DNA from: an uncultured Erysipelotrichaceae bacterium
GTDB taxonomy: Bacteria > Bacillota_I > Bacilli_A > Erysipelotrichales > Erysipelotrichaceae
Reading direction: 5' to 3'
DNA: 33,976 nucleotides
Assembly: GCA_947167125.1 (NCBI GenBank)
Contig: CAMVGT010000028.1
Span: forward strand, 1-33,976
Below, piece after piece: positions 106 to 14,669 of this stretch. The translations under genes were made by a program, and so were the position numbers. Under the pieces are notes generated by a model. The model saw only the letters and a program-made list of their open reading frames with translations, did not search any database and was not told where the DNA came from. Within the stretch, counting starts at the first letter, position 1. Every line of letters begins with the position of its first letter.

Positions 106-1662
106 TCAGGAATTTTCTGCGGACGGGTCATCCACCCGGTGCAGACCTGTTTCATTCAGCAGATATACTTCATCGGCGCACTGGCCGATATACAGACGGT
201 CATGACTGACACTGATCACACATCCCTTGAAGGATGCGATCATATCGCGGATGACCGGCGAAGAAAGCGGAGAAAAGTTGCGGGTGGGTTCATCCAGAAT
301 CAGCACATTGGCTTCATCCAGATTCATTTTCAATAACAGCACCTTTGCCTTCTGTCCGCCGGAAAGTTCTTTCATCGGATGTTCCATTTCATCCGTTGTA
401 TAGCGCATTGCGCCAAGATACTGCCTGGCTTTCGTGACATCATCCTTCTCTCTTCCCTTTGCCAGAAACTGCACAGGAGAAAGCGAAAGATCCAGAAGAT
501 CTTCATAATGCTGGGGCATATAGGCTGCCTTGATATCATTTCTAAGCAGCAGTTCTTCTGCAATCTTTCTTAACAGGGTTGTCTTGCCGCAGCCGTTGTT
601 TCCGATGATGCAGATGTGGGCAGGACCGCTTACATGCAGTTCAATATCCTTTGCCAGCAGCTTTCCTTCCGGCAGCCGCAGCTCTTCCATCTGCAGATCC
701 AGGATCCGCTTGCCGCCGGCAACGGCGCAGCGATCAGAAAAGCGGAAGCCGATCGCTTCTTCCTGTTCCGGGATTTCGGTCATATTCTCCCGCTCTTTTT
801 CAAAGCGCTTTTCCAATGCCTTGACGGCATGCATCTTCTTTTTTAACAGGAAACCGGAATGGGGATCCTGGCGGGAAACGGTATTGAGTTCATGATTGAC
901 CCGCTGCTGGATGCGCTGAAAGCGTTCCATCCTTTCCCTGTCCGCCCTTCTGTCCCATACCGCCTTCTGCATCTGCTTGTCAAACAGCTGTTCGCGCTGT
1001 TCCTTATAATCTTCATAGCTTAAGGAAGCCTGTGTGATTCTGCTCTGTGTCTTGCGCTTTAAAAGCTCCATATGGATGACACGGTTTGCGGTATTGGAAA
1101 TCAGAACTTCATCGTGGGAAATAAACAGAACAGCCTGCTCTGTTTTCTGAATCATCTCCTCCAGCCAGTTCAGTGCTTCCAGATCAAGATCATTGGACGG
1201 TTCATCCAGCAGAAGCACAGTGGGTCTTGCAAGCAGAATCCTTGCCATCTGAATCCGGATCTTTTCACCGCCGGATAGTGTTTTCATGATCTGGTCAGAA
1301 TAAAAGATTTCAGAAGGAATATGCAGGAAGAAGGCAAGATCATTCAGTTCCTTCGCACCGCACGCGCTGAACTGCTCTTCCTCCAGGAAATATTCATATA
1401 CCGTTCTGTTTTCATCCTCCTCAGGCAATTGCTGGGGAAGATAGCCGGTTGTTTCATGATCTTTGATACATGTGCCTTCGGCATCGGCGTAGGAGGAAAT
1501 CAGAAGCGGATCATGAATCCACTTCAGCAAAGTGGATTTTCCGTTTCCTTCCTCCCCGATTAAAACAGCCTTGTCTTCAGGCTGAAGCGTCATATTGAAA
1601 TGATCAGCCAGGACGCGCCCGTCCCGCCTGTATGTGATCGTCAGATTCTCTATTTTAAGCAT
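106..1662 (-). CDS. ABC-F family ATPase (ribosome-associated or antibiotic-resistance type)
   Basis: A soluble protein of 518 aa with two ATP-binding cassettes and no membrane segment, the hallmark of ABC-F proteins, which bind the ribosomal E site and either rescue stalled ribosomes or displace antibiotics. NBD1 has Walker A near residues 36-44 (GEEGNGKST), signature LSGGE at 129-133 and Walker B LLLLDEP at 149-155. A charged linker of about 110 residues (198-310) follows. NBD2 has Walker A at 354-362 and signature LSGGQ at 433-437. After the NBD2 Walker B the D-loop reads DEPTRNFSPLSSP instead of the usual DEPTNHLDL, so the second site is atypical. The start at 1662 is chosen because GAGG lies 6 nt upstream; a longer TTG-started reading to 1731 has no such support. 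Resistance and housekeeping roles cannot be separated by eye. Confidence 0.88.
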   Translation of the reverse strand: MLKIENLTITYRRDGRVLADHFNMTLQPEDKAVLIGEEGNGKSTLLKWIHDPLLISSYADAEGTCIKDHETTGYLPQQLPEEDENRTVYEYFLEEEQFSACGAKELNDLAFFLHIPSEIFYSDQIMKTLSGGEKIRIQMARILLARPTVLLLDEPSNDLDLEALNWLEEMIQKTEQAVLFISHDEVLISNTANRVIHMELLKRKTQSRITQASLSYEDYKEQREQLFDKQMQKAVWDRRADRERMERFQRIQQRVNHELNTVSRQDPHSGFLLKKKMHAVKALEKRFEKERENMTEIPEQEEAIGFRFSDRCAVAGGKRILDLQMEELRLPEGKLLAKDIELHVSGPAHICIIGNNGCGKTTLLRKIAEELLLRNDIKAAYMPQHYEDLLDLSLSPVQFLAKGREKDDVTKARQYLGAMRYTTDEMEHPMKELSGGQKAKVLLLKMNLDEANVLILDEPTRNFSPLSSPVIRDMIASFKGCVISVSHDRLYIGQCADEVYLLNETGLHRVDDPSAENS

Positions 1663-1794
1663 TGTATACCTCAATTCAGACAATATAAAAATGATATAAA
1701 GATGCGATGTATATTGCGTGCGGTTTTTCAATGCTCAGAGCTTCATCCTATCACTGTCCCCTGAATCAGGAGCCCTTTCTTCAAGCGGATTATA
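1663..1794 (-). promoter_or_regulatory. Candidate promoter and long leader of the ABC-F gene
   Basis: A TATAAT hexamer on the minus strand (1794 to 1789) lies about 127 nt upstream of the ABC-F start, implying a leader of roughly 120 nt. No good -35 is seen. The leader holds a tiny ATG-AAG-CTC-TGA reading frame near 1738-1749. Antibiotic-responsive ABC-F genes often use leader attenuation, but no clear terminator/antiterminator pair was found here. Confidence 0.35.
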
Positions 1795-8001: not shown

Positions 8002-9222
8002 TTATTCACGGACCAGCGGCATGGACATGCATCTGGGGCCGCCTCTGCCTCTGGAAAGTTCATAGCTTGGGATCTCAATGACTTCAATGCCATGATCCCT
8101 AAGGATCTGATTTGTCACATCATTGCGGTTGTAGGCAATGACTTTTGAAGGCGCAATGGCCAGCGTGTTGGAACCGTCATTCCACTGCTCTCTGCGGGAG
8201 GCAATCACATCTTCCCCGCCGCAGGGGATCAGCTCGACATGGTCCTGCTTTGTATATTCCTGCAGAATTTCCTGCAGTGTTCCTTTGATTTCCTTGAAAT
8301 GAATGCCGCTTTCCGCCGGTGTGATATCAAAAACCGTCAGCGGGGCAAGAATGCCGGGATGAACGACATATTTCGCCGTATCCACCTGGGTGAAAACCGT
8401 ATCCAGATGCATGAATGCACGGGTGCTTGGAATCCGGAATGCCAGTACCGTATTGATCGGGCAGCTTTCATCTTCAAACAGCTGAGCAGCCAGATGTTCA
8501 ATCGCATCCGGGGAAGTCCTCTGTGAAATACCGACCGCAATCAGGGTTTCGGAAAGATTCAGGATATCCCCGCCTTCAATCGTGCCGTGCTCTTCCCTTG
8601 TATATTTCAGTTTGACATACGGCGCATAGTCCGGATGGCAGCGGAAAATATAATCGGCATAGATTGTTTCCCTTCTGCGCACGCTGTATTTCATGCTTGA
8701 AATCACAGCATCTTTTCCGACAGAGGCGAACGGATCGCGCTGGAAATAGAGATTGGGAATCGGATCGATAATCAGATCATCGGCAGGCGCAATGCGGTCC
8801 TGCAGGGAATATGCCCTGACCTCCCCCATTTCCTTGAGGGTGATGCCTTCCATCGTTTTTAAGACAAGGTCCCTGCCGTGGAAATGTTCAAGCAGATACT
8901 GCTTGAGCTTGTTCTTCCATTTTTCGGTCTTGATGTTTCCTTCATTCAGCCACTGATCAAGAAACGGATCGACAAGATCGGGACGCCGTTCAAACAGCTC
9001 ACTCATCAGATCTTCGAGATATACCGTTTCCGCCCCGTTTTCCCGGAGCGCTGCCGCAAAGGCGTCATGTTCCGCCTGGGCCTGTTTCAGAAACGGAATG
9101 TCGTCAAACAGCAGTTCGCCAAGACGGTCGGGAACCAGGTTGAGAAGTTCTCTGCCGGGCCTGTGCAGAAGGACTTTTTTCAGCGGTGCGGTTTCGGATG
9201 TGACGTGTATTCCTTTGATCAT
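8002..9222 (-). CDS. arcA: Arginine deiminase
   Basis: A 406-aa enzyme that hydrolyses L-arginine to L-citrulline and ammonia, the first step of the arginine deiminase pathway (energy and acid tolerance). All catalytic residues are visible: Asp163 in QRDPFA, Glu216 in IEGGD, His272 and Asp274 in MHLDTVFT, and nucleophile Cys398 in GGPRCMSMP near the C-terminus. Length is normal. The start at 9222 overlaps the stop of the upstream gene (ATGA), with AAAGGTG just before it; the longer reading to 9246 lies inside the upstream gene. Unlike typical arc operons, no carbamate kinase, ornithine transcarbamylase or arginine/ornithine antiporter is adjacent. The partner here is a TIGR00300 protein. Confidence 0.95.
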   Translation of the reverse strand: MIKGIHVTSETAPLKKVLLHRPGRELLNLVPDRLGELLFDDIPFLKQAQAEHDAFAAALRENGAETVYLEDLMSELFERRPDLVDPFLDQWLNEGNIKTEKWKNKLKQYLLEHFHGRDLVLKTMEGITLKEMGEVRAYSLQDRIAPADDLIIDPIPNLYFQRDPFASVGKDAVISSMKYSVRRRETIYADYIFRCHPDYAPYVKLKYTREEHGTIEGGDILNLSETLIAVGISQRTSPDAIEHLAAQLFEDESCPINTVLAFRIPSTRAFMHLDTVFTQVDTAKYVVHPGILAPLTVFDITPAESGIHFKEIKGTLQEILQEYTKQDHVELIPCGGEDVIASRREQWNDGSNTLAIAPSKVIAYNRNDVTNQILRDHGIEVIEIPSYELSRGRGGPRCMSMPLVRE

Positions 9223-10304
9223 TTCACACCTTTGTCCACCAGACATACAAAGTCCTGCACGTTTGTAACAAGAGTTACTGCGGACAGGCTGCCGCGGTCA
9301 TGAAGCTTGTTGGTCACAAATTCGGAAATATCAACGCAATAGAAGAATGTCGGTCTGACTTTTCCTTCTCTGACGCGGAAGGACGGAATCATATTGCCGG
9401 AGGCGATGGAATGCAGCTGGGTTGCTAAGCAGATAATTGTAGTCGCGTCCCTGAGCATGTCACGCATTGCGGACTGTCCTTCATAGGCATCGGCAATGAC
9501 TTCCGGAAGCGGTCCGTCATCGCGGATACTGGATGTCAGTACAAACGGGATATTGTTTTTGACAAGGCCGTAGATGATGCCGTTGTCGATTTTGTATTCT
9601 TCAATGAACTTCGGGATGGATCCGCATCTTCTGACTTTGTTGAGTACATCAAGATGATGGTAATGTCCCATCGGCGCTGATTTCTGTGTATAGATATCCT
9701 GGCCCAGCGAAGTGCCGAGCAGTCCTGCTTCAAGATCATGTGTCGCCAATGCGTTGCCGGCTAAAAGACCGTGAACATAGCCCTTGTCAGCCAGCGATTC
9801 CATCGCTTTGCGGGAATCATAGTCAAATGAACATGCAGGTCCCATGACAAAGACGATCTTGCCGTGTTCCTTTTCATATTCCAGAAGGTCATAGAGGTTC
9901 TGATAATCCCTGGCAAAAGCGGTCTCTCTGGAGCGGTTGCCGCGGAAGACAAACTGATCATCGATTTTATCTTCATCCGGGGTAAATCCGTTCACATGGA
10001 GATAGATGCCGTCTTCACACCGCTCGGTTCTTCCGGTGATGACAAGCTCTCCCTTTTTCACATTTCTCTGTTCCACGACAGCCAGCGTTCCGTCTTCTTT
10101 GAGAACAACACAGCTGTCCATGCGGCTTTCTTCCGCCAGTGTCCATTTTCCGTTTATTTTGAAATATTCCGGATAGATGGATGTGGAATGGAAATTGTCA
10201 GGTACGACACCGTCTCTTTCAGCCGGTTCGTATTTTGCGTCAGGCGCACTCTGAAAAATCGGCAGAGTAAAATCCGGCGCTTTGTATTCAGGCATGATAA
10301 ACAT
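9219..10304 (-). CDS. TIGR00300 / LOR-SDH domain protein, probable NAD-dependent ornithine cyclodeaminase
   Basis: A 361-aa protein that matches the TIGR00300 family from memory of its conserved blocks: LLAGNALATHDLEAGLLGTSLG near 181-202, HHLDVLNKVRRCGSIP near 215-231, PFVLTSSIRDDGPLPEV near 252-268, and LATQLHSIASGNMIPS near 292-307. The N-terminal third is the LOR/SDH-type domain. The same fold forms the C-terminal half of cyanobacterial AgrE/ArgZ, where it makes proline from ornithine, and an archaeal member is an ornithine cyclodeaminase. The activity here is inferred. AAGGAG (10320-10315) precedes the start. Its TGA overlaps the arcA ATG, so the two are translationally coupled, linking it to arginine catabolism. 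Confidence 0.85.
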   Translation of the reverse strand: MFIMPEYKAPDFTLPIFQSAPDAKYEPAERDGVVPDNFHSTSIYPEYFKINGKWTLAEESRMDSCVVLKEDGTLAVVEQRNVKKGELVITGRTERCEDGIYLHVNGFTPDEDKIDDQFVFRGNRSRETAFARDYQNLYDLLEYEKEHGKIVFVMGPACSFDYDSRKAMESLADKGYVHGLLAGNALATHDLEAGLLGTSLGQDIYTQKSAPMGHYHHLDVLNKVRRCGSIPKFIEEYKIDNGIIYGLVKNNIPFVLTSSIRDDGPLPEVIADAYEGQSAMRDMLRDATTIICLATQLHSIASGNMIPSFRVREGKVRPTFFYCVDISEFVTNKLHDRGSLSAVTLVTNVQDFVCLVDKGVK

Positions 10305-10416: not shown

Positions 10417-11109
10417 TTAATTTCCCTGGTTCAGATTCATGTCGAGAACCGCGACAATCCGGTATTCGGGATTCAGCTGCGTCAGTACCGACTGGTACAT
10501 CGATTCAACCTGGCGCATTGCGGCAGAATCGGCAGCGGAAAGATACGGCGTTTTCCGCGCTTCCTCATACAGTGCTTCCTGCAGCTGCTTTTCGACCTCA
10601 TTCTGCTGTTCAGGCGTCAGTTTGATATCGCCCCAGCCGAAGATGTTCCGTTCGATGTCATCAAATGTGGTTTTGGAGAAATCAATGACCACATTTTTCA
10701 GCTCCGCCCGCGGAATTGTGACAGTGATGGTCTGCTGATTGCGGTCCACAATCACATCGCCGGCATCGATCTGCGACAGATCGACAATATATTCTGCTGT
10801 TGCGGAAAGATGAACAGTCTGCTTCTTCAGGAACCATTCGATATTCAGGAACATATCCTTGATATCAAGTGCTGCTTCAAGATCCTGCTCATAGACAATC
10901 AGCTGCTTCTGTGTCCTGTTTTCCGCTGCGATGATCTCCTGGATCTCTGTATAGGAATATCCCATCGGATCCTCTTCAGGATCCTTCCGGTTTGAACTGC
11001 ATGAGGTCTGCTGGCCGAACAGCAGAATCACAAATGCCGCGGCAGCCGCGATCAGACAGATTCTGATCCAGAATTCCCTGTTTTTGTAAATCGGTCTGTT
11101 TTCATTCAT
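10417..11109 (-). CDS. DUF4230 family single-pass membrane protein
   Basis: A 230-aa protein with a short basic cytoplasmic N-terminus, one membrane helix (about 15-33) and a mixed alpha/beta extracytoplasmic domain. The domain includes a region like QLIVYEQDLEAALDI, the strand block DAGDVIVDRNQQTITVTIPRA and a long C-terminal helix rich in Glu, Gln and Ala. This arrangement fits DUF4230, whose biochemical function is unknown. GGAGG lies 7 nt before the ATG. It starts 15 bp after the stop of the GTPase-nuclease gene and shares its transcript, but no functional link between a secreted-side domain and a ribosomal factor is evident. Confidence 0.8.
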   Translation of the reverse strand: MNENRPIYKNREFWIRICLIAAAAAFVILLFGQQTSCSSNRKDPEEDPMGYSYTEIQEIIAAENRTQKQLIVYEQDLEAALDIKDMFLNIEWFLKKQTVHLSATAEYIVDLSQIDAGDVIVDRNQQTITVTIPRAELKNVVIDFSKTTFDDIERNIFGWGDIKLTPEQQNEVEKQLQEALYEEARKTPYLSAADSAAMRQVESMYQSVLTQLNPEYRIVAVLDMNLNQGN

Positions 11110-11124
11110 GGAGATGCCTCCTTA

Positions 11125-13614
11125 TCACTGAAACTGTTTCTTTACCGCTTCCATGCGGGAATGCAGTTCCCTTGCGCTCATGCGCAGAGCCCCCTGGGCA
11201 AAGACCGCATTCTGGATGAGCGCGTCGGAAGTCGCGACGGTCAGCTCATAGGTATTTCTTAATTCATATGCGATCCGCTGGATATATTCATCGGCGGTTT
11301 CATTGGTGCGGGTATAAACGATTTCAACATCATTCTGCTTCAGCTTCGTGCCGGTATTGCCCTGCACGCGGTAGCCGTCAAACACAATGATCATATGGCA
11401 TTTCAGATATGCCTGATAGGCAAGCAGGTCATCGATCAGATATTCCCTGACCGTGGTGATATCATGATCGGCCAGATCATGATATTCATCCCAGGAATAA
11501 ATCATATTGTATCCATCGATGATCAGACATGCCGGAAGTTCTTTGCGGACAACCGGTTTCTGTTTCTTTTCTTCTTCCTTCGGCTTTGGCTTTCTGGTGT
11601 CATGTTTCTTTTCGTTGCGGTTGCGTCCGCCTGCCTGTTTCAGAACATCCAGCAGATCCTCTTCCGCTACTTTGTACGAGGAAGGACGCCATGAGGAAAC
11701 AGAATGTTCCTTCGGCGGCTGAACATGCATATATTCGTCCGCTTTGTCCCACGGTACATAGAAGCCGGAGCCATGGGCGCAGAATACCGATCCGGTCGGG
11801 TTGCGCAGATCCGCTTCCGGATCATAGCCGGTCGCTTCGACAATCGCGTCCTGTTCTTCGCAGATATCATATCCGTCCGGCACGCAGCTGAACCTTCCGG
11901 TCCCTCTGGTATAGGCGGTTACTTCCATCTGGTAATTCATCAATGTGCGCACCGGTCCCCTGCCGTTGATTGTCATGGTATCGCCATCGCTGTCTTCAAT
12001 CACGGTCTTTGCCTTCTTTGTTTCAAGATCATAAAGGGCTCTTGAAAGAACGGAAGAAGGAAGCGTCAAAGAGAAAGCATAATACGGCTCGAGCAGAATG
12101 CATTCTGTTTTCATTAATGCCTGACGGACGGCACGGCGTGCAGCCTGGCGGAAGTCGCCGCCTTCGGTATGCTTGAGATGGCCTTTTCCTGCAGTCAGGA
12201 CAATGCGCACATCATCAAGCTGCGAACCGGTTAATACACCTCTGTGCCTTGAGCGTTCGAGGATCGAAAGAATACTTCTCTGCCATGAGGAGGAAAGGAA
12301 ATCGGTCGGACATTCGCTGACCACTTCAATCCCGCTCCCCCTTTCCCTGGGTTCGAGGCGAACATGGACTTCGGCATAATGGCGCAGCGGTTCAAAATGA
12401 CCGGCGCCTTCGGTTTCTTCAGCAATCGTTTCATGGAAGATAATGCCGCCGGCTGAAAAACCGACATGAAGTCCGGAAAGCTCAAAGATTCTCTTTTGAA
12501 GAACCTCCATCTGCATTTCACCCATAATGGAAACTTTGATCTTGCCGGAAACAGAATCGGACGCAATGTGCAGCTGGGGATCTTCATCCGCAAGTCTGCG
12601 CACCGTTTCCGCCATGCTTAAAGCATCCGCTCCTTCCGGCAGAAGCAGTTCATATTCCATATACGGATCGAGCAGCGGCTGTTCGCCATCCTCTTCAAAT
12701 CCAAGTCCCTGTCCTGCTTCAATGGAAACAGGACCTTTGACAGCGACAATCATACCGGCTTCCGCTTCATCGACCATGCGGCAGCTTTTGCCCGAATAGA
12801 TGCGGATCTGATCCGCCTTTTCATCTTCCCGAAGCATCTGCTTTGCCTTTAATGTGCCGCCGGTAATCCGCATATGGGTCAGACGTGTATTTGTTTCATC
12901 TGCAGAAATCTTATAGACACGGGCTCCGAATTCTTGAGGATACACCCGCTCATCGGCATAGAAATCAATCATATCCAGCAGTTCTTCAACCCCGTCATTT
13001 TTCAGTGCGGAGCCAAAGAGCACCGGAAAACATCTGCGTGCTGTAATCGCTTCGCGGATCATTTCCGGCGGAATTGTTCCGTTTTCAAGATATTCGTTGA
13101 GCATGTCCTCGCTGACGGTTGCCAGCTGTTCCATGCCTTCTTCGGTATTCATTTCAAAGCAGTCGGCTGAACATTTCTTTTTCAGATCATTCAGAAGCTC
13201 TTCTTTTGTATGATGGGAAATATCCATCTTGTTTACAAAGATCACGGCCGGTACATGGTAATGTTCCAGGCACTTCCAGATCGTTTCAGTATGCGCCTGC
13301 ACGCCATCCTGCCCGCTGATCAGAATCACGGCAAGATCCAGAACCTGCAGCGTGCGTTCCATTTCGGCTGAAAAGTCGACATGGCCCGGGGTATCAATCA
13401 CAAAAACTTCGGTATCCTTCCATTTGAAATACGCCTCCTTGGCGTAGATGGTGATACCGCGGTTTCGTTCCTGTTCGTCATAATCCAGCACGGCGTCCTT
13501 ATGGTCGACGCGTCCGGCTCTGCGGATCGCGCCGCTTTTGAACAGCATGCTTTCAATACAGGTTGTTTTTCCGGCATCGACATGGGCGACGATGCCTGTC
13601 ACAATTCTTTTCAT
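11125..13614 (-). CDS. TetM/EF-G-like translational GTPase fused to a YacP/Rae1-type NYN ribonuclease domain
   Basis: An 829-aa fusion. Residues 1 to about 650 have the layout of ribosome-protection/EF-G GTPases: G1 AHVDAGKTT (10-18), G2 RGITI (52-56), G3 DTPGH (74-78), G4 NKMD (128-131), G5 GSALK (about 201-205), then beta-barrel, domain III (GEMQMEVLQKR), domain IV and domain V regions. A Lys/Glu-rich linker (about 662-690) leads to an NYN/PIN-like domain (about 692-829). That domain has LIIDGYNMIYSW, IVFDGYR, TADEYIQ, ATSDALIQ and GALRMSAREL, giving acidic residues near 700, 746, 775 and 797. The last block matches B. subtilis YacP/Rae1, which cuts mRNA in the ribosomal A site. The start is ATG 13614 (or GTG 13617). 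It has no Shine-Dalgarno, and TGA-TATAAT ends 7 nt upstream. It heads a two-gene operon with DUF4230. Some relatives are labelled tetracycline-resistance proteins; resistance is not implied. Confidence 0.9.
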   Translation of the reverse strand: MKRIVTGIVAHVDAGKTTCIESMLFKSGAIRRAGRVDHKDAVLDYDEQERNRGITIYAKEAYFKWKDTEVFVIDTPGHVDFSAEMERTLQVLDLAVILISGQDGVQAHTETIWKCLEHYHVPAVIFVNKMDISHHTKEELLNDLKKKCSADCFEMNTEEGMEQLATVSEDMLNEYLENGTIPPEMIREAITARRCFPVLFGSALKNDGVEELLDMIDFYADERVYPQEFGARVYKISADETNTRLTHMRITGGTLKAKQMLREDEKADQIRIYSGKSCRMVDEAEAGMIVAVKGPVSIEAGQGLGFEEDGEQPLLDPYMEYELLLPEGADALSMAETVRRLADEDPQLHIASDSVSGKIKVSIMGEMQMEVLQKRIFELSGLHVGFSAGGIIFHETIAEETEGAGHFEPLRHYAEVHVRLEPRERGSGIEVVSECPTDFLSSSWQRSILSILERSRHRGVLTGSQLDDVRIVLTAGKGHLKHTEGGDFRQAARRAVRQALMKTECILLEPYYAFSLTLPSSVLSRALYDLETKKAKTVIEDSDGDTMTINGRGPVRTLMNYQMEVTAYTRGTGRFSCVPDGYDICEEQDAIVEATGYDPEADLRNPTGSVFCAHGSGFYVPWDKADEYMHVQPPKEHSVSSWRPSSYKVAEEDLLDVLKQAGGRNRNEKKHDTRKPKPKEEEKKQKPVVRKELPACLIIDGYNMIYSWDEYHDLADHDITTVREYLIDDLLAYQAYLKCHMIIVFDGYRVQGNTGTKLKQNDVEIVYTRTNETADEYIQRIAYELRNTYELTVATSDALIQNAVFAQGALRMSARELHSRMEAVKKQFQ

Positions 13615-13630
13615 CACGATTATTATATCA
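13615..13630 (-). promoter_or_regulatory. Extended -10 promoter abutting the GTPase-nuclease start
   Basis: TGA-TATAAT on the minus strand (13630 to 13622) leaves 7 nt before the ATG. The -35 region falls in the terminator of the upstream operon and is a poor match. The expected start site is at or 1 nt before the ATG, giving a leaderless mRNA. Confidence 0.55.
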
Positions 13631-13641
13631 AAATCCCCTAT

Positions 13642-13667
13642 GAAAAAAGGATCCGAAGATCCTTTCA
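13642..13667 (-). terminator. Terminator of the lipase-rnz-dagK-peptidase operon, overlapping the stop codon
   Basis: The stem AAAGGATC/GATCCTTT (13665-13658 with 13653-13646) is closed by a TTCG tetraloop and followed by more T residues on the minus strand. The first stem base is the last base of the TGA stop (13667-13665) of the P1 peptidase gene. Confidence 0.88.
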
Positions 13668-14669
13668 GAGAAATTCACGCAGCGCATGAACAGGATTGCC
13701 CTGTGCGTCCTGACACGCTTCTGCTGCAATCAATGAATCCAGCACAGCTTCCTCCGTCGCTTCGCCAGCCAGACGGAAAGCAGGATCGAGCAGATGATCG
13801 GGCAGGATTTCATGGACGATCATGCCTTTGGCATGTTCCATTGTATTGGCAGTTGTAAAACCGATAACAACATCCCCGCTGCCGTGTCCCAGTCTTGATC
13901 CAAGCCGGATCAGACCGGTTTCGCATCGCTTCAGAATCCGCTTGAGCTGTCTGCTGTCTACCGGCAGATCAGTCGCAAGAATAATCATGATGGAACCTTT
14001 GTCTTCGCTTTCCTGCGCTTTGATCGCTTCCGCAATCCGTTTTCCGATGGGATCGCCGGCAATGGTCAGATCACGCATCGAACCGAAATTGGACTGCACG
14101 AGAATGCCGATTGTATAATCATTTCCCTTGATGCGGAAGGTTCTTGAAGCAGAACCGATGCCGCCTTTGAGCCCGAAGCAGACAGTTCCCCTTCCCGCTC
14201 CGACCGCACCGGTCTCAAATGTATCGGACGCGTTTTCAATTGCTTCGATCACATGGTCGCTGCGCACGGCAAGAGACGCGATGTCATTGATTTTCGAATC
14301 GTTGGTTTCTCCGCAGACCGGATTGAATGTGCGCACATTCAGATTTTCCGCCAGGGTATAGCGGACCAGACCTTCCAGACACTGTCCGACCGAAAGCGTA
14401 TTGGTCAGTGCAATCGGAGATTCAATGCAGCCGAGTTCCTCCAACTGCATCAGTCCGGCAGTCTTACCGAAACCGTTGATCACATGGACAGCCGCAACCG
14501 GTTTTTTATGATAGATGTCGTCGCACGGCACAACCACCGTCACGCCGGTATGGATTGTGTCATCATCCAGTGTGACATGGCCGGCTTTTACACCTTTGAC
14601 GTCGGTGATCAGATTCTTTTCACCGCGGGTTCCTTCCCCGTACTGTTCAAAAACTTCCTGCACTCTCAT
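13665..14669 (-). CDS. P1 family (DmpA-type) aminopeptidase
   Basis: A 334-aa Ntn-like hydrolase precursor of the DmpA/BapA family, which self-cleaves and then removes N-terminal residues or beta-amino acids from small peptides. The expected autoprocessing site is Gly225-Ser226 in DKGSIMIILATDLPVD, where Ser226 would become the nucleophile of the beta chain. Other family blocks are GVTVVVP near 42-48, NGFGKTAGL near 65-73, the ESPIALTNTLSVG loop near 83-95, NPVCGETND near 116-124, GAVGAGRGTVCFGLKGGIGSASR near 154-176 and VQSNFG near 191-196. It has no signal peptide and is cytoplasmic. It is the last gene of a four-gene operon and starts 1 nt after the dagK stop, with only a weak GGTGA ribosome-binding site, so it probably relies on coupling. 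Confidence 0.92.
   Translation of the reverse strand: MRVQEVFEQYGEGTRGEKNLITDVKGVKAGHVTLDDDTIHTGVTVVVPCDDIYHKKPVAAVHVINGFGKTAGLMQLEELGCIESPIALTNTLSVGQCLEGLVRYTLAENLNVRTFNPVCGETNDSKINDIASLAVRSDHVIEAIENASDTFETGAVGAGRGTVCFGLKGGIGSASRTFRIKGNDYTIGILVQSNFGSMRDLTIAGDPIGKRIAEAIKAQESEDKGSIMIILATDLPVDSRQLKRILKRCETGLIRLGSRLGHGSGDVVIGFTTANTMEHAKGMIVHEILPDHLLDPAFRLAGEATEEAVLDSLIAAEACQDAQGNPVHALREFL

Follow-up and report, generated by a model that had tools for sequence, protein, structure and literature searches.

What is a YacP/Rae1-type endoribonuclease doing at the end of a translational GTPase? The question is raised by a gene in a 33,976-nucleotide stretch of DNA from an uncultured Erysipelotrichaceae bacterium (contig CAMVGT010000028.1, positions 1 to 33,976; hereafter the window). 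Here, a single unbroken minus-strand reading frame encodes an EF-G/TetM-like GTPase, a flexible linker, and an NYN nuclease domain. We consider the protein to be probably a housekeeping form of Rae1 borne by a GTPase: the GTPase would dock on the ribosome, and the tethered nuclease would then cut the mRNA in the A site. The features needed for the argument are the following. Residues are numbered with the GTG codon at 13617 as residue 1, and A1 is the GTPase profile with which genomes were searched for fused and unfused GTPases.

11125..13614, minus strand: fused gene for an EF-G/TetM-like translational GTPase, a linker, and a YacP/Rae1 NYN endoribonuclease (829 amino acids, ATG start, TGA stop).
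11719..13614, minus strand: GTPase part with domains G, II, III, IV, and V and a conserved C-terminal extension (match to profile A1, 1017 bits).
12367..12408, minus strand: domain IV tip loop I, residues 404-417 (GAGHFEPLRHYAEV), near-invariant among relatives, whether fused or not.
12142..12189, minus strand: domain IV tip loop III, residues 477-492 (GKGHLKHTEGGDFRQA), unlike the TetM tip.
11530..11700, minus strand: Lys/Glu-rich flexible linker, residues ~640-696, recognized by length, charge, low conservation, and a predicted local distance difference test score (pLDDT) below 50 over most of it.
11128..11526, minus strand: NYN_YacP (Rae1-type) domain, residues 698-830, with four invariant Asp and 12 residues after the SAREL motif.

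The initial annotation had proposed a complete GTPase, a linker, and a Rae1-type NYN domain on one chain and had called for a Pfam search of the full protein. This search found all expected domains above the curated cut-offs, domains II and III by a narrow margin: GTP_EFTU at 5-221 (E 1e-52), EF-G_D2 at 230-302, EFG_III at 328-383, EFG_IV at 392-504, EFG_C at 508-589, and NYN_YacP at 698-829 (E 1e-41, 142.9 bits against a cut-off of 24.6). In the PDB, the sequence matches TetM (3j9y, E 6e-71) and Rae1/YacP (5mq9, E 4e-25). GTP_EFTU and NYN_YacP are both listed in all of the best 120 of 7,976 scored relatives, and likewise in the best 120 of 7,995 in a second search. The proposed architecture therefore stands, with conserved G motifs, a strong NYN match, and the acidic residues kept. 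A frameshift or false join of two genes was ruled out by the single frame and by the same architecture in relatives. In the own-genus genome G260, GTPase and NYN lie in two overlapping frames of 712 and 160 amino acids (L222, 5943-8515), which may be a sequencing error, a broken gene, or a true split.

The open reading frame tool placed the start at GTG 13617. ATG at 13614 is the likelier start because homologues begin with MK, and it gives 829 amino acids. Inspection by eye of ~13615-13680 (minus strand) showed a terminator-like hairpin that ends the upstream S58 peptidase gene, followed by TATAAT 7 bases before the fusion ATG, and no clear ribosome-binding site near this ATG. The fusion mRNA could be nearly leaderless.

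The nuclease part keeps the catalytic residues of Rae1. D701, D747, D776, and D798, equivalent to D7, D53, D81, and D104 of Rae1, are each Asp in 59/59 aligned sequences, and the domain is 42% identical to B. subtilis Rae1 (55/130 aligned). The ratio of nonsynonymous to synonymous substitutions is low in both parts (GTPase 0.09-0.12, NYN 0.08-0.27; six relatives, synonymous changes near saturation). Folded alone without an alignment, the NYN domain gave a poor model (pLDDT 55), which was not used. The whole-model fold comparison covers residues 1-599 only; hence, support for the NYN fold comes from sequence and from the confidently predicted part of the whole-protein model. The linker spans 53-66 residues in the family with a median of 39% charged residues. 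Its majority identity among aligned relatives is 40%, against 57-73% for the domains, and in the predicted model, it is mostly unstructured (pLDDT under 50 at 636-652 and 663-688).

Fused and stand-alone forms exclude each other in the genomes sampled, 294 from the organism's own class and 243 from Clostridia. In the own class, NYN_YacP scores above the cut-off in 36/294 genomes, and all 36 copies are fused: 34 frames of 823-1109 amino acids, one 615-residue frame containing the GTPase (G108), and the overlapping frames of G260. In Clostridia, 164/243 genomes carry the domain, 88 as a fusion and 76 as a stand-alone protein of 160-216 amino acids, and 79 have no YacP. Both forms together occur in 0/243 Clostridia, against 27.5 expected (hypergeometric 1e-19, uncorrected for relatedness). 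Whether fusion genomes lack a separate yacP, a check proposed in the initial annotation, can thus be answered: both forms are found in 0/88 Clostridia and 0/36 own-class fusion genomes, and the fusion is the sole YacP/Rae1 form in 124/537 sampled genomes (88/243 + 36/294). Frames of at least 841 amino acids account for 82 of the 88 clostridial fusions; in the other 6 genomes, the NYN frame is shorter (295-734 amino acids) and either lies at the edge of a contig, contains stops, or immediately adjoins the GTPase. Among fetched frames, the GTPase was present in 20/20 of the large and 0/20 of the small size class. Apparent second NYN_YacP copies in G594, G644, and G673 are partial matches of ~21 bits, below the cut-off, and were counted as none. 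Two large fragments on two contigs of G035 (own genus) were counted as one fusion. Searching 60 relatives gave 52 with a match, of which 51 have one copy and the other has two fragments.

The former place of yacP can also be recognized. Stand-alone yacP was examined at 20 fetched loci: within 6 kb of it are rlmB at 19, a sigma gene at 18, and cysS at 14 (RlmB, SigH, and CysS named by NCBIfam); another neighbour looks like mrnC by reading alone and has no NCBIfam match. In 16/20, yacP sits between rlmB and the sigma gene, in a gap of 539-668 nucleotides. The fusion is not such a small separate gene next to rlmB and sigH, and no yacP frame was found around rlmB in 22 fused genomes (two of the contigs stop 55 and 267 bases past rlmB). 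Ten of these loci have a sigma gene after rlmB (one weak), with a gap of 55-284 nucleotides in 8 and ~580 in 2. Fusion-carrying G505 retains a decayed, stop-interrupted yacP in a gap of 577 nucleotides (L248, ~2224-2800), with 36.6 bits and E 2e-6, whereas the best among 200 shuffles reached 24.6. The same-size gap of G658 (L245, 919-1500) holds no recognizable relic, and no further relic was clear of the shuffles; the next best, L263, at 25.4 bits against 24.6 for the best shuffle, was left out of the count. The pattern is most simply explained by a takeover by the fusion, after which the separate yacP decayed.

This neighbourhood also bears on another explanation, namely that the protein acts on the ribosome in the maturation or quality control of rRNA or tRNA and is not an mRNA nuclease, an older NYN proposal cited in PMC4342817 (this and all further papers are cited from partial texts). 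RlmB is a 23S methylase, and in B. subtilis, yacO and rae1 mutants act in one pathway (PMC6613710). However, B. subtilis Rae1 is described as acting on A-site mRNA (PMC12320835, PMC6613710, PMC10100781), and the fused domain keeps its catalytic residues. We regard the rRNA/tRNA explanation as highly improbable.

Trees indicate that fused and separate forms have replaced each other repeatedly. In a careful GTPase tree of 65 rows, the subfamily (100/99), the fused clade (100/99), and a TetM-like clade (98/94) are recovered. Unfused clostridial GTPases form the neighbouring group of the fused clade (89/66, weak). Three unfused proteins, from Ligilactobacillus salivarius and two viral-contig records (100/98), fall within the fused clade, next to five fused rows (96/86); hence, the L. 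salivarius form probably lost its nuclease. The tree supports one nuclease gain and one later loss. On an RlmB tree of 41 rows, the fused and stand-alone states must switch 5 times (bootstrap 4-7, 2 or more of them forced), and fused G502 is placed, for instance, with G529 and G573, both stand-alone (97/92). The exclusion is therefore not one lineage effect, and the RlmB tree supports several exchanges between Rae1 and the fusion.

What the fused nuclease has given up is the basic tail of Rae1. Stand-alone Rae1 proteins have ~45 residues after the SAREL motif with a mean net charge of +3.2 (n = 39). In fused copies, 10-50 residues follow, with a mean charge of -1.1 in Clostridia (n = 42) and +0.2 in the own class and related loci (n = 64); the window protein retains 12. 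The tail of B. subtilis Rae1 reads FEKLRR to R166, and the R166-equivalent position is basic in 30/39 stand-alone against 3/106 fused sequences. The Arg165-Arg166 tail that marks stand-alone Rae1 is missing from the window protein. A Rae1 R166P variant was recovered among efp suppressors in a B. subtilis forward screen and was read by the authors as a loss of function (PMC6613710). Judged from these sequences, the tail may dock Rae1 to the ribosome, and its loss or lower charge in fused copies suggests that the GTPase took over this docking.

The GTPase itself is a distinct subfamily of EF-G/TetM-like GTPases and not TetM. With few exceptions in 62 fused and 19 unfused relatives, tip loop I follows the consensus G-x-G-H-[FY]-E-P-L-[RK]-H-Y-A-E-V and tip loop III the consensus G-[KR]-x-H-x-K-H-T-x-G-G-D-F-R; majority conservation is 95% in loop I against 66% overall. 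At the tip, YYSPVSTPADF in TetM aligns with GHLKHTEGGDF in the window protein. The tip of ten TetM-like proteins also differs from that of the fusion subfamily, and as only 3/10 have Pro at the TetM Ser-Pro-Val position, this tripeptide marks TetM/TetO and not all ribosomal protection proteins. The fusion also scores below the NCBIfam EF-G cut-off (TIGR00484, 271.5 against 659.4), and its own genome has two further EF-G-type proteins of 698 amino acids each. Unfused members of the subfamily, 645-729 amino acids in Clostridia and 644 in the L. salivarius plasmid protein, match profile A1 at 692-884 bits. They share loop I, most of loop III, and the C-terminal extension with the fusion but have no nuclease, and the L. 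salivarius form lacks the tip residues H480 and K482. The gene for this tip-altered form (L088, 5529-7920) adjoins rpsN, which encodes 30S protein S14.

TetM is the best PDB sequence match, and the fusion could be a tetracycline ribosomal protection protein whose nuclease adds a new mode of resistance. Exactly this was suggested in 2015 for ten Clostridiales whose Tet proteins carry a YacP-like NYN domain (Atkinson 2015, PMC4342817); the initial annotation knew of no assigned function. Some public records of such fusions carry TetM/TetW/TetO/TetS family names, and two fused copies are on large plasmid records. In the window, ~9 kb from the fusion, an ABC-F-type double ATPase of 541 amino acids (106-1731, minus strand) is a second possible ribosome-acting factor; its best NCBIfam model is ribosomal-protection-like, but below the cut-off (286.5 against 380 bits). 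The fusion, however, misses the NCBIfam Tet cut-offs by a wide margin (385 against 775 for tet_protect and 271 against 1100 for tet_protect_M_W), the TetM tip loop is replaced, and the gene is single-copy in nearly all matching relatives. None of the 20 neighbouring frames scanned is a mobile-element gene (most are metabolic, 2 without family), and the nuclease is present in 0/49 viral-contig loci; 12 phage-record NYN matches sit in unannotated records and may be host DNA. In Clostridia, 10 genomes have a protein that is TetM-like by score, and 3 of them carry the fusion as well; in the own class, G094 has both. Moreover, resistance does not predict the exclusion between fusion and Rae1. A nuclease-extended resistance protein is thus very unlikely, and tetracycline resistance as the main role is unlikely. 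As the initial annotation had it, the GTPase is atypical as a tetracycline protection protein, given its Tet scores, its replaced tip, and its separate clade, and mRNA decay or rescue fits better than resistance. The initial interpretation is partly supported; the GTP-driven delivery of the nuclease to stalled or drug-bound ribosomes that it also suggested is a hypothesis.

How might a GTPase-borne Rae1 work? The subfamily GTPase would bind at the factor site of the ribosome and use its near-invariant domain IV loops to probe an A site that holds no elongating tRNA. B. subtilis Rae1 is known to enter the A site, and a TetM/EF-G-like factor fills the same space with domain IV. Since domain IV and the nuclease cannot share the A site, we propose sequential action. 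Upon GTP hydrolysis and release, domain IV would withdraw, and the nuclease on its ~55-residue flexible linker would move into the emptied A site and cleave the mRNA there. The GTPase would stand in for the basic tail (Arg165-Arg166) that stand-alone Rae1 appears to need. The ribosome would then be rescued by tmRNA, which is present in the own genome. Somewhat more tentatively, the protein may be a GTP-gated single-chain A-site endonuclease, a one-protein bacterial counterpart of no-go decay that was swapped with free Rae1 more than once in Bacillota. In such a gated enzyme, the GTPase would inspect the A site with its own tip signature, and only on ribosomes without a productive GTPase cycle would GTP hydrolysis pass it to the nuclease.

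Several findings weigh against a GTPase-borne Rae1. The hand-over of the A site from domain IV to the nuclease is a guess. Rae1 does not need this GTPase, as 64/76 stand-alone genomes have none of the subfamily, and the link between unfused GTPase and stand-alone Rae1 is not significant (12/76 against 5/79 without YacP, p 0.07). The GTPase likely has a role of its own because seven genomes have it without a YacP match: 5 of the 17 Clostridia genomes with an unfused form (G648, G508, G535, G511, G549) and 2 in the own class (G078, G097). The L. salivarius-type branch, which lost the nuclease and kept the GTPase, likewise suggests that the GTPase has value alone. The absence of YacP from 79/243 Clostridia makes the function dispensable. 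Many fused copies, including most clostridial ones, keep a tail of 30-50 residues that is merely less charged, and 10/106 fused sequences keep two adjacent basic residues near its end (32/39 stand-alone). The yacP relic is a single case in 22 loci. The NYN tree separates the two forms less cleanly than the GTPase tree does (3 changes, 2 forced), with fused L219 and L221 among stand-alone rows and stand-alone L104 among fused ones. With Rae1 mostly without the GTPase, the GTPase also unfused, and YacP often absent, the halves may be loosely coupled. They might even work separately, the GTPase as a factor for translation under stress or for recycling, and the nuclease as an ordinary Rae1 riding along without GTP gating, and the long, poorly conserved linker would suit this arrangement. 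Nevertheless, fused copies have lost the Rae1 tail or show a lower charge there, which suggests that docking passed to the GTPase, and the two forms replaced each other more than once. We therefore consider independent halves rather unlikely and continue to favour the GTPase-borne Rae1.

Across 20 clostridial loci, no conserved neighbourhood of the fusion was found; on the own side, it keeps genes for an S58 peptidase, a lipid kinase, and a DUF4230 protein as neighbours in 6/20 loci. In the window, the DUF4230 protein gene (10417-11109, minus strand) lies directly downstream, an adjacency kept in close relatives only. Further on, an arginine deiminase gene adjoins one that encodes an ArgZ-like arginine dihydrolase C-terminal domain (8002-10304, minus strand).

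With regard to known systems, B. subtilis Rae1/YacP (PDB 5mq8/5mq9) shares the NYN_YacP domain and the four acidic residues with the fusion, but it is a stand-alone protein whose C-terminal tail is basic, and the genes of its relatives lie beside rlmB and sigH. In the window protein, the NYN domain follows a GTPase, the gene is away from rlmB/sigH, and the tail is missing. TetM and TetO have the same five-domain EF-G-like build, whereas the fusion differs in its domain IV tip loops, scores below their family cut-offs, and falls in a separate clade. Eukaryotic no-go decay employs the Hbs1 GTPase with separate endonucleases, and bacteria have RelE and SmrB. These also place a GTPase, a nuclease, or both at the A site or at stalled ribosomes, but they are unrelated or separate proteins, whereas the fusion has both domains on one chain.

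The window protein is most likely a member of the Tet-NYN group of Atkinson 2015, to judge from the architecture described there, which has the same GTPase and C-terminal NYN domain. That study filed the fusions as Tet, whereas the present data favour Rae1 replacement and extend the set beyond Clostridiales to Erysipelotrichaceae and relatives, in whose sampled genomes no YacP other than the fusion occurs. Literature searches, which did not cover key Rae1 papers, found no functional study of the fusion; as far as they go, its reading as a GTPase-borne Rae1 replacement, with the evidence from exclusion, relic, tip loops, and tail, is new. In public records, such proteins appear as TetM-family, NYN domain-containing, GTP-binding, or translation factor GTPase family. 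Because some of them are named tetracycline-resistance proteins, resistome counts may be inflated. If our reading is true, the fusion shows how an A-site nuclease can come under GTPase control. It would offer a natural docking module for Rae1 and suggest the purpose of the Rae1 basic tail, and what selects a ribosome for Rae1 cutting would become testable by comparing the free with the GTPase-borne enzyme.
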